Below are positions 16-4,420 of a stretch of DNA of 42,331 nucleotides, in pieces (position 1 is the first letter of the stretch; each line of letters opens with the position of its first letter). The position numbers and the translations under genes were made by a program. The notes beneath the pieces are model-generated. The model saw nothing but the letters and a program-made list of their open reading frames with translations, made no database searches and had not been told where the DNA came from. This stretch comes from a virus: the IMG/VR virus record IMGVR_UViG_3300035117_000061, positions 1 through 42,331 of that record; one strand, 5' to 3'.

Positions 16-302
16 CGAAGCTCGACCCGCTTAGAGGTAACCCAAAACACCCCATGACCATATCAACGGGACTTCTGTGTTGCACCCGGAATAGAGGTTG
101 ACAAAGAATCAACAAGATAGATGCTGAGCGAAGCGATGGAAGCGAGTTAGAAGCGGAGTTATCAGAGCTGGCGCTTCGCAGTTAGACAGCTTCCGGTTCA
201 ACAACTTAGGTTGATGCGAAGCGGCGAAGCGGTGAAATCCCTGGGAATCCCGATGCAGGGGTCATCGGGTGTTTTGGGTTCTTATAAGCGGGTCGAGCTT
301 CG
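16..302. ncRNA. Candidate large structured RNA or origin hairpin closed by a 38-bp interrupted stem
   Basis: Bases 16-33 pair perfectly with 285-302 (18 bp), 39-52 with 267-280 (14 bp) and 54-59 with 260-265 (6 bp). Only a small internal loop (34-38 against 281-284) and one C/C mismatch interrupt the helix. The enclosed 198 bases hold more stems: 97-101/109-113, 172-180/215-223 and 198-202/210-214 nested inside the latter. A multi-branched RNA closed by pairing of its ends is the usual plan of the large phage-associated RNAs (GOLLD, ROOL), but I do not recognise a known family. The strand is unknown because the stem is symmetric. A DNA role (origin or cruciform) is the main alternative. Confidence 0.5.
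128..231. repeat. GCGAAGCG short repeats (iteron-like)
   Basis: GCGAAGCG occurs at 128-135, 216-223 and 224-231, and in inverse orientation at 172-179. The core AAGCG recurs at 131, 140, 151, 219 and 227, roughly one helical turn apart in the first cluster. Direct short repeats next to a large inverted repeat are typical of initiator-binding origins. The same repeats can equally be read as competing RNA helices, since the inverse copy can pair with any of the direct copies. Confidence 0.4.
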
Positions 303-539: not shown

Positions 540-1190
540 GTGTTCAAGAAGGGATTGGTGCGTCAGATGAACAACCTTCAAGAGTGGCTCAAGGAAGTGG
601 TTATCAATCGTCAACACGTATCTGCCAGCGCGGATGAGATCACAATCACGATGCGCGGCAAACCAAACCCGCACCGCAGTGCTGCCAATGATCAAGCCAT
701 CCTCAACCTTGTCAATGATGGGTTGGGACTTCCACACCGCACGCTCCGGGCAAGCAACCTCAGCCTGGTGCTGCCGACATTGCTGTTGATCTGCGTCAGC
801 GCGTTTAGTCCCGGTTGCCTCCTCCAAGCACAACAGAAGAGGACTTACCACAAGGCTAAGATCGCAGAGCTTGCCACTGACAACCCAGCACACTGGAAGT
901 ATGTTCACACTCACATCGAGGTCGAGGGTTACGTCACCTACATCACTCAAGAGGCAGACGGTGATTGGCACATCAGACTCTGTGACGATGCCAAGATCAA
1001 GACCATGGACGTACATCATTGCGTTGTGGTCGAGGTCATCCCGGAGCTCAAGCCCAATGGCAAAGTATTCATACGACCTCACTTGGGCGATCATCTCAGA
1101 GTGCGCGGCATTAGCCGTTATGATGCTGAGCTGCCTGGTCATAACTGGTGGGAAGTTCACCCTGTGGAAGAGATTGAGGTGCTTGCCTAA
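540..1190 (+). CDS. Secreted or lipid-anchored OB-fold protein (start uncertain)
   Basis: The last 100 residues look real and resemble a small beta-barrel (OB-fold) family of bacterial exported proteins, with an ADGDWHI strand, a VVVEVIP strand and the closing WWEVHPVEEIEVL motif. In the longest form (216 residues) a hydrophobic stretch at residues 74-93 ends in SPGC, which would be a signal peptide with a weak lipobox if translation starts near the GTG at 768. The upstream ATGs (567, 651) lack a clear ribosome binding site, so the region 540-767 may be non-coding. The stop overlaps the next start (TAATG). The function is unknown; an exported nucleic-acid- or envelope-binding role is inference. 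Confidence 0.6.
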   Translation: MFKKGLVRQMNNLQEWLKEVVINRQHVSASADEITITMRGKPNPHRSAANDQAILNLVNDGLGLPHRTLRASNLSLVLPTLLLICVSAFSPGCLLQAQQKRTYHKAKIAELATDNPAHWKYVHTHIEVEGYVTYITQEADGDWHIRLCDDAKIKTMDVHHCVVVEVIPELKPNGKVFIRPHLGDHLRVRGISRYDAELPGHNWWEVHPVEEIEVLA

Positions 1191-1456
1191 TGGCTTGCTC
1201 ACCACGTGGCGTCTGCGTACTGAGCCAGGAAGAGGTCAAAGCATTCCACCTTCATGGCATCATTCCCAACCATAAGCAGCACAAGCACATCTCGACCGCC
1301 AAGGCAATCAACCTCGTAGTCAGCGACCTAGCTTATGCTCTGGAAGCTGACGGAGTCAACGCTATTGTCGAGCATTTGTCTAATGGCTATGTTTGGAAGT
1401 CGAGGATGAGTGCTGGGTACAACGTCCGCCAGATGGTGAGGTTGGTGCAGGGATGA
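1190..1456 (+). CDS. Small unknown phage protein
   Basis: This 88-residue protein is not recognised. It starts at an ATG that shares one base with the preceding stop and ends by ATGA overlap with the following zinc-ribbon gene, which supports translational coupling. The sequence is soluble and mixed, with a VVSDLAYALEADG helix and a basic C-terminus. An overlapping open frame at 871-1275 has poor composition and is not preferred. Its position in a cluster of small genes ahead of the terminase is common for accessory genes of the structural arm. Confidence 0.55.
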   Translation: MACSPRGVCVLSQEEVKAFHLHGIIPNHKQHKHISTAKAINLVVSDLAYALEADGVNAIVEHLSNGYVWKSRMSAGYNVRQMVRLVQG

Positions 1457-2338: not shown

Positions 2339-2656
2339 GTGCGGGCATTCGAGGTTCATTGCCCTTCCTGCGGTGTCCTTATCAGAGCACTGAGGGCACC
2401 GCTGAGTTGCCCAGACTGCGGCAATGTTCAAGCAATCATGCTGGAGTATCGAGAGGACTTGCACCATGGCAAAAACACCAATAGTGAAGCGGGAAGCGAA
2501 GCAGCGCAATGCTGGGAAGAATATCAGACGGCGTGTTGGCTCAGATGGGCTGACTGCGAGGGAGAGGCATTTTGTCTCAGCCTATGTTCAGACTCTGATG
2601 GAGACACAAGGCAAGGGCAATGCCAAGAGAGCTGCTTTGCTGATGGGTGCTACTGA
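2339..2656 (+). CDS. Zinc-ribbon ORF overlapping terminase small subunit
   Basis: A GTG start at 2339 sits just behind GGAGG (2329-2333). The first 30 residues carry CPSCG and CPDCG spaced 18 residues apart, a clean four-cysteine zinc ribbon. From about residue 42 the frame runs under the terminase small-subunit gene for 191 bases and its composition (many C, W and S) looks like an out-of-frame shadow. So the N-terminal ribbon is probably genuine and its tail doubtful. Either the protein really has a long overlapping tail, or the ribbon is joined to the terminase frame by frameshifting. Confidence 0.45.
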   Translation: MRAFEVHCPSCGVLIRALRAPLSCPDCGNVQAIMLEYREDLHHGKNTNSEAGSEAAQCWEEYQTACWLRWADCEGEAFCLSLCSDSDGDTRQGQCQESCFADGCY

Positions 2657-3134
2657 AGCAACCGCAGCATCAATGGGTTCCGGTTTGCTGCGCCGTCCGC
2701 AAGTACAGGCTGCAATTCAGCCACACATTGAGAGGTTCTGCGAGAAGTACGATGTTACTACAGAACGCATCGTCAGAGAGCTTGCGAAGCTGGCTTTCAC
2801 TGGCATGAGCAAGTTTGCCCGCAAGACTGATGATGGTCAACTGTACTTCGACTTCTCGACCGCCACAGACGATGAGCTTGACGCGATTGTCGAGCTGACT
2901 GTGGATGAGTATCAGGAAGGCAAGGCATCAGACGATACGCAGCGCAACGTCAAGAAGGTCAAATTCAAGCTCGACAGGAAGGGTGCACTTGAGCTACTTG
3001 GTCGTCATCACAAGATGTTCACCGACAACGTTGCTCATTGCAACCCGGATGGCAGCCCAATTGAACCTGCTGACGATGAGATCATTGTCATCTTCTCAGA
3101 CCCACCCACAGAACCCGCCAAGCCTAAGGAGTGA
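2466..3134 (+). CDS. terS: Terminase small subunit
   Basis: This protein has 222 residues from the ATG at 2466 (GAGAGGA upstream); a start at 2424 is possible. It should recognise phage DNA and load it on the large subunit. Residues about 25-75 form a helix-turn-helix of the Terminase_2 type: LTARERHFVSAY, then GNAKRAALLMG and RRPQVQAAI. A long helix (EKYDVTTERIVRELAKLAF) follows, as in small subunits that oligomerise into rings. The stop overlaps the ribosome binding site of the large subunit, consistent with coupled synthesis. Confidence 0.85.
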   Translation: MAKTPIVKREAKQRNAGKNIRRRVGSDGLTARERHFVSAYVQTLMETQGKGNAKRAALLMGATEATAASMGSGLLRRPQVQAAIQPHIERFCEKYDVTTERIVRELAKLAFTGMSKFARKTDDGQLYFDFSTATDDELDAIVELTVDEYQEGKASDDTQRNVKKVKFKLDRKGALELLGRHHKMFTDNVAHCNPDGSPIEPADDEIIVIFSDPPTEPAKPKE

Positions 3135-3136
3135 CG

Positions 3137-4420
3137 ATGGCGTACTACGAGTTTCCTCCAAAGCTCCAGATGCTGTGGCGTCCATCGCGCTACAAAGTGG
3201 CAAAGGGAGGTCGAGGCAGTGCAAAGAGTTGGAGCATTGCTCGTGCTCTGCTCTTGAAGGGCAAGAAGCGGAAGTTGCTGATTGTCTGCGCCAGAGAGTA
3301 TCAAAAGTCCATTGCCGAGTCCGTGCACCGCCTTCTCCAACAGCAGATCATAAAGATGAACCTGACGCACTTCTATCGCGTCACTGACACTCACATCACT
3401 GGCAAGAATGGCACAGAGTTCATTTTTGTGGGTCTGCACACCAACATCAAGTCCATCAAGTCGATGGAAGGCGCAGACATCCTCTGGATTGAGGAAGCGG
3501 AGAACATCAGCAAGGCATCCTGGAAAGTCATCATCCCAACCATCCGCAAACCTGGGAGCGAGATTTGGGTCAGCTATAACCCTGATGATGAAAAAGACCC
3601 AACGCACGTTATGTTTGGTGGGCCACCAGATAGTTGGCCGCCAGGCACGCAGGTTGTCGAGATCAATTGGCAGGACAACAAGTGGTTCCCTGAAGAACTG
3701 CGTATTGAGAAGGATTACGCCTACAAGATTGATCCTGATACTGCTGAGCACGTTTGGGGCGGCAAGTGCAATGTTCGCTCTGATGCGCAGATTCTGAAGG
3801 GTCGTTGGAAGGTCGAGGCATTTGAGCCTGATGAGAAGCATTGGGATGGGCCATACTTTGGTCAGGACTTCGGATTCAGCACAGACCCAGCTGCAACAAC
3901 CAAGAGCTGGATCAATGACAACAAGCTATACATTGAACATGCGGTATTTGGCCATGGCCTCAAGAACAAAGAGCTGAATGATCTCATCCGCACAATCCCA
4001 GGAGCAGGCAGCCATATCATTCGCGCTGACTGTGCTCGACCTGAGACCATAGCTCACTTGGCTGAAGACTTCGACCTCAACATTGTTCCTTGCACCAAGT
4101 GGCCTGGTTGTGTTGAAGATCGCATTCAGTACTTCCGTAGCTTTGAGCAGATCATCATACATCCTGAGGATGACAAACATCCAATGATGAAGCACATGAT
4201 TGATGAAGCTCGACTGTGGAAGTGGAAGGTTGATAGACTCACAGGCGACATTCTCCCGATTGTGGTTGACAAATGGAACCATGGCTGGGATGCGACAGGA
4301 TATGGACACGAGCCAGCAATACTCCGCATCCATGAGGAGCAGGGCGTTGTTGACATGGCAGCAGAGGTTCAAATCAGTCAAGACTTGGATGAGGCTGAAG
4401 CTCAGTTCTCAAACTGGTAG
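3137..4420 (+). CDS. terL: Terminase large subunit (ATPase and nuclease)
   Basis: This is the packaging motor and headful or cohesive-end nuclease, 427 residues, of the Terminase_3/PBSX type. The N-terminal ATPase has a Walker A motif GGRGSAKS at residues 24-31 and a Walker B motif ILWIEEAE near 114-121. The C-terminal RNase H-like nuclease begins at FGQDFGFSTDP (Asp244 and Asp250) and continues with RADCARPE. The ATG at 3137 is preferred over the GTG at 3131 because AAGGAG lies at the proper distance. The gene sits between the small subunit and the portal, the standard order. Confidence 0.95.
   Translation: MAYYEFPPKLQMLWRPSRYKVAKGGRGSAKSWSIARALLLKGKKRKLLIVCAREYQKSIAESVHRLLQQQIIKMNLTHFYRVTDTHITGKNGTEFIFVGLHTNIKSIKSMEGADILWIEEAENISKASWKVIIPTIRKPGSEIWVSYNPDDEKDPTHVMFGGPPDSWPPGTQVVEINWQDNKWFPEELRIEKDYAYKIDPDTAEHVWGGKCNVRSDAQILKGRWKVEAFEPDEKHWDGPYFGQDFGFSTDPAATTKSWINDNKLYIEHAVFGHGLKNKELNDLIRTIPGAGSHIIRADCARPETIAHLAEDFDLNIVPCTKWPGCVEDRIQYFRSFEQIIIHPEDDKHPMMKHMIDEARLWKWKVDRLTGDILPIVVDKWNHGWDATGYGHEPAILRIHEEQGVVDMAAEVQISQDLDEAEAQFSNW

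Follow-up and report, generated by a model that had tools for sequence, protein, structure and literature searches.

Positions 16-302 of the window, by which is meant the whole stretch of 42,331 bases analysed here (IMG/VR record IMGVR_UViG_3300035117_000061, an incomplete viral contig of a tailed phage), almost certainly constitute a functional nucleic-acid fold, and it is likely that the element acts as RNA rather than as DNA. The explanation favoured, with moderate confidence, is a conserved structured RNA of about 290 nt that forms a new family, confined to a small group of related, uncultured tailed phages, and may be a late-operon leader with a long clamp stem. Structured non-coding RNAs are hardly known in phages outside model systems; the present element, which Rfam lacks, stands up to a covariation test and lies where early genes give way to late ones. 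If transcribed, it would offer a small and concrete target for late-gene timing, or for an RNA role in packaging or replication.

The outer stem (P1) had been described in a preliminary description as three ordered pairing blocks that could not be due to chance and that no gene explained, and all of this held: the blocks lie exactly where they had been placed (Table 1), and the longest exact inverted repeat in the window within 400 nt is the 18-mer of the outermost block, compared with 11-14 in 20 simulated Markov-1 sequences of equal length. On the + strand alone, positions 35-37 contribute three more pairs with 281-283 (A-U, G.U and G-C). The region 16-302 is free of plausible genes, the sole listed ORF of at least 60 aa that touches it being a 307-aa frame that runs antisense to the 540-1190 gene and ends at 282. 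RNA folding of positions 13-306 gave -127.9 kcal/mol (z -7.6) on the + strand and -123.0 kcal/mol (z -9.3) on the - strand, and 0 of 200 shuffles were as good in either case.

The close relatives G001, G002 and G003 show 98-100% identity to the window over the element and yield no covariation; between the window and G003 there are 4 differences in positions 1-352 and about 9 in the next 200 nt, and sequence upstream of about -70 barely aligns. Diverged homologues were sought among phages related through Pol III alpha. Two were found, G008 and G010, with a core identity of 71-73% and an element of 297-300 nt (287 nt in the window), and the covariation rests on three independent sequence types, namely that of the window and those of these two phages. 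When the sequence examined for each phage was searched, the long-range inverted repeat of the element was the best or joint best in all three. The outer arms of the three types differ greatly from one another yet pair within each phage: each phage's own arms gave -84.8, -103.6 and -75.0 kcal/mol, whereas arms exchanged between phages gave only -29.4 to -47.4 kcal/mol. In gap-free comparisons of P1, 5 of 16 pairs were changed on both sides between the window and G008, with no mismatch, and 8 of 20 between the window and G010, with one mismatch that is the window's own. Together these make 13 base pairs altered on both sides; when partners were slid by one to three columns, at most two pairs of this kind were left. 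Shuffled controls equalled the observed result in 17 of 500 cases for the window and G008, a weak control because two sequences are few, and in 0 of 500 for the window and G010.

The preliminary description had also reported several further stems in the interior. Further folding is indeed predicted there, but the minimum free energy (MFE), centroid and MEA predictions disagree on its details, and for this reason only two helices, P2 and P3, are claimed. P2 joins CCGGAA with TTCCGG and GTTG with CAAC, the pairing having been assigned partly by inspection; it is nearly invariant across the three types and competes with an alternative fold in the window's MFE structure, from which the helix 138-143/189-194 was not adopted since it conflicts with P2. 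P3 is laid out as GAAGCG, a loop of GAGTTATC plus 8 nt, and CGCTTC, and all types retain both GAGTTATC and the loop length of 16. In G008 two P3 pairs are changed on both sides, with one mismatch (24 of 500 shuffles). Compensatory changes were thus found in both P1 and P3, the outcome whose absence, according to the preliminary description, would have spoken against the structure, and a stem that covaries in homologues indicates a selected fold. Within the core, conservation extends over about 150 nt and includes the GAGUUAUC loop, CCGGAAUAGAG, UUCAACAACUUA and the GAAGCGG repeats, with P1 variable around it. A variable P1 around a conserved core is the arrangement that would be expected if P1 were a clamp or processing stem and the core were recognised by a partner. 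A candidate switch or pseudoknot, in which the tail at 303-362 pairs with the conserved TTCAACAACTTA, was dropped (P 0.026 in the window and 0.23 in both homologues).

Table 1. Coordinates of the structural features and of the neighbouring rightward genes in the window.
Feature	Position	Strand	Remarks
P1 block 1	16-33/285-302		18 bp
P1 block 2	39-52/267-280		14 bp
P1 block 3	54-59/260-265		6 bp
P1 5' arm, outer stem	16-59	+	blocks 16-33, 39-52, 54-59; covariation
P1 3' arm, outer stem	260-302	+	blocks 260-265, 267-280, 285-302; covariation
P1 inner extension CGGGA	67-71	+	pairs with 248-252; in centroid
P1 inner extension TCCCG	248-252	+	pairs with 67-71; in centroid
P2 5' strand	79-91	+	GTTG 79-82, CCGGAA 86-91, then invariant ATAGAG; conserved in G008 and G010
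P2 3' strand	191-208	+	TTCCGG 191-196, CAAC 199-202, inside conserved motif TTCCGGTTCAACAACTTA
P3 hairpin	150-177	+	stem 150-155/172-177; 16-nt loop 156-171 starting GAGTTATC
Tandem CGAAGCGG CGAAGCGG	217-232	+	3' of P2; identical in G008, CGAAGCGTGGAAGCGG in G010
First rightward gene after element	540-1190	+	216 aa, no family match
88-aa gene	1190-1456	+	homologue is first rightward gene past element in G008
Terminase small subunit, late operon	2424-3134	+	counterpart is first rightward gene past element in G010
Terminase large subunit	3131-4420	+	

Arms of an inverted repeat may also be kept alike without any selection on the fold, by template switching or inverted-repeat recombination (quasipalindrome correction), for example in an old transposon-like repeat. 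Such correction can alter both sides of a stem at once, and the element does resemble terminal inverted repeats. Against this, the interruptions at 34-38/281-284 and 53/266 persist, a substitution in G003 (279 T>G) breaks the pair A40-T279 and stands uncorrected, P3 covaries as well, and the interior is conserved in sequence, single-copy and syntenic in three phage types; nor was there any match in phage, plasmid or bacterial genomes, bar one judged to be chance. Quasipalindrome correction is therefore considered highly improbable. A mobile element of the MITE or IS kind is likewise contradicted, since the element is single-copy in its own record, occupies one syntenic place in the relatives and has no phage or plasmid copies.

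Known families and further members were searched for as follows. Rfam, to which the preliminary description had referred the region, disclosed no known large phage RNA family, nor any other family, although GOLLD, ROOL, introns, riboswitches, 6S RNA and tmRNA are among those it covers: cmscan with Rfam 15 returned 0 matches for the window at gathering cut-offs, a single chance snoRNA match for positions 1-600 at E 5 (14.1 of 50 bits), and two sub-threshold matches for the homologues' regions at E 1, both outside the element. ARAGORN found no tRNA or tmRNA, and a retron ncRNA was discounted, there being no reverse transcriptase among the scanned proteins, including those of the genes adjacent to the element. 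Neither a set of 50,697 phage records nor the 72,556 plasmids of PLSDB contained a match to the element. It was found in only five other IMG/VR records, giving three sequence types with that of the window, and two pattern scans that covered 2.9 million viral contigs recovered the same five records and two matches judged to be chance (L161, with no covariance-model match, and L162, with 12.7 bits at E 0.5). The sole pattern match in the genome collection, in Lactiplantibacillus (L125), had no covariance-model match and was also attributed to chance, as were viral contigs with an exact 17-mer of the right arm (L023, L024, L025 and L027), which share little beyond the 17-mer. Scanning another 40 related records with a covariance model gave nothing above 10 bits and no new members.

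The rightward genes of the window, from about 0.5 to 24 kb, encode the small and large terminase subunits, portal and head proteins, followed by large genes without a family match; Pol III alpha, helicases, polynucleotide kinase and thymidylate synthase are products of the leftward genes, which run from about 24.5 kb. From this gene content the leftward genes are taken to be early and the rightward genes to form the late operon. In the relative G002, 6,489 extra bases lie between the window's end and its start, encoding an AEP primase, an HNH endonuclease and Pam3-like genes, and their presence points to a genome that is circular, or circularly permuted, at this place. Because G002 bridges the end of the window to its start, the element is placed between the leftward and rightward arms and not at a genome end. 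The window start is probably an assembly break at a 62-bp repeat that ends a few bases upstream, which would explain why the contig begins at position 1. This repeat occurs just upstream of window position 1 and before two leftward genes (L004:172-233 and L004:935-997), and carries TTGACA-17-TACGGT on the - strand, which is probably the phage's early promoter.

The position of the element is constant in all three types, with a leftward gene of one family (P0001) at one flank and the first rightward gene at the opposite flank, but which gene comes first on the rightward side varies. The 540-1190 gene is absent at the corresponding place in G008 and G010, and in G002 it is disrupted, similarity ending near window position 818 and restarting at 1190. 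P0001 is a family of 130-aa proteins (L034:9627-10019, - strand) that matched nothing in PHROGs, NCBIfam or annotated phages, and its AlphaFold model, mostly helical and of low confidence (mean pLDDT 52.5), was too poor for a fold search. Homologues of P0001 and the element are found in the same five IMG/VR records only; as these represent one lineage, the co-occurrence is not independent evidence for a link. In the gap between P0001 and the element, about 30 nt of the form CTTGTGCAAACCCTTTA(A)CTAACGGTTCATA (L122, about 2510-2540; also in L004, L005 and L006) are nearly identical in window-type and G008 phages, the remainder of the gap having diverged.

The main rival reading, although an unlikely one, is that the element is DNA and serves as the replication origin, its stems extruding or forming on a single-stranded template and its GAAGCGG and TTCAACAACTTA motifs binding an initiator or an AEP-type primase. 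The preliminary description had likened the region to the plan of either a large phage non-coding RNA or an origin; the selected structure common to both is borne out by the homologues and the covarying stem, and an RNA is the likelier of the two. The element does stand at the hinge of the divergent gene arms and, in all three types, close to where the cumulative GC skew turns. It has short motifs that are repeated both directly and as inverted copies, Pol III alpha, an AEP primase and helicases are among the proteins of the phage, and folding with DNA parameters gave z -6.5. However, the skew turns where the genes change strand, and such a change can by itself produce the turn; extruding a stem with a 200-nt loop from a DNA duplex would be difficult, a regular array of iterons was not observed, and core conservation over about 150 nt exceeds the need of short binding sites. 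RNA is favoured as the most natural explanation for pairing that spans a 200-nt interior and persists although the sequence has changed.

As to the strand, we lean towards an RNA read on the + strand, in the direction of the late operon. Fold z-scores for the + and - strands, respectively, were -10.2 and -8.7 in G010 and -7.1 and -6.3 in G008, both favouring the + strand, whereas that of the window is better on the - strand. In the window and G010 the + strand is favoured by the G.U pairs of the outer stem and by the raw energy, and the outer-stem mismatches of G008 would be wobbles on the - strand; raw free energy was withdrawn as an indicator of strand after the z-scores revealed a composition effect. 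No convincing + strand promoter was found upstream of the element, nor any + strand terminator-like site from the element to the first late gene. A structured RNA from the - strand would belong to the early leftward genes, as their leader or as a small RNA, and would end at a terminator-like hairpin before the P0001 gene. This hairpin, on the - strand, is kept with altered stem sequence in the window type and G008 (L005:2792-2820 and L122:2459-2489) and could be an attenuator of the early operon. A - strand RNA is nonetheless quite unlikely, since the probable leftward promoter sits between the element and the gene and points away from the element, and no conserved - strand promoter was seen to the right of the element.

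Read rightward, the element would be the 5' leader of the late (terminase) operon, a proposal that is tentative when taken by itself. The domain would be clamped by P1, a long stem of variable sequence that could act as a processing or protection stem of the RNase III type, comparable to the long stems around rRNAs that have such roles. The conserved core, with its GAGUUAUC loop, CCGGAAUAGAG, UUCAACAACUUA and GAAGCGG repeats, would be the part recognised by a partner, and this recognition might govern whether RNA polymerase proceeds into the late genes, unless the core is instead released as a trans-acting RNA. A processed RNA acting in trans is possible but not probable; in its specific form, doubtful in itself, a free RNA of about 290 nt would be released when the long clamp stem is cut, its GAGUUAUC loop and GAAGCGG repeats binding a phage or host protein and switching early to late expression. 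A packaging site (pac or cos) by the terminase genes, recognised as DNA, would also account for a location directly upstream of the late operon, where the next gene in G010 is the small terminase gene, and for a genome circular or circularly permuted around this point. It is very unlikely: the small terminase gene lies 2.1 kb away in the window, the contig start fits an assembly break at the 62-bp repeat better than a packaging cut, and packaging sites are not known to require a covarying long-range stem of 40-50 bp.

Several known systems were compared as possible functional analogues of the favoured RNA, none of them being claimed as its family. The pRNA of phi29 (174 nt) is linked to packaging, is tied to the phi29-type packaging ATPase, and keeps its fold while its sequence drifts. 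The element shares this persistence of a structured phage fold, but an ordinary TerS/TerL terminase pair is present and there is no Rfam match. The late-leader RNA of lambda is a nascent structured leader RNA that could control transcription elongation. So could the put RNA of HK022, a nascent structured RNA in a phage operon leader, although it acts on early transcripts and is much smaller than the element (PMC9378689). Unlike either, the element has no detected + strand terminator to be read through, and no sequence relation to them was seen. GOLLD RNAs are often longer than 800 nt, and both GOLLD and ROOL are often near tRNA islands (PMC12286853). They resemble the element in being large, elaborately folded, non-coding, phage-borne and found by covariation with no function known, but the element is about 290 nt long, has no Rfam match even at E 5 and is accompanied by no tRNA genes. 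The cabRNA of staphylococcal phages, of about 400 nt with double-stranded parts, lies in the terminase region, beginning inside terS and extending into terL (PMC10686824), whereas the element is intergenic and upstream of the terminase genes.

Long inverted repeats were also seen in other phages. Those of G013 and G014 were rejected as homologues, having no covariance-model match and unrelated sequence. An inverted repeat with 42-nt arms around about 205 nt is intergenic between leftward genes in IMGVR_UViG_3300047586_000083 (about 52583-52871; L141:13584-13872) and has only GGAATAGAGT in common with the core of the element. In IMGVR_UViG_3300049927_000161 (55385-55709; L145:16385-16709), a virus whose Pol III alpha is 57% identical, a giant hairpin of about 325 nt near the contig end is built from repeats of TTGCCTCAC and of the complementary GTGAGGCAA, with an RNA z of -13.6.
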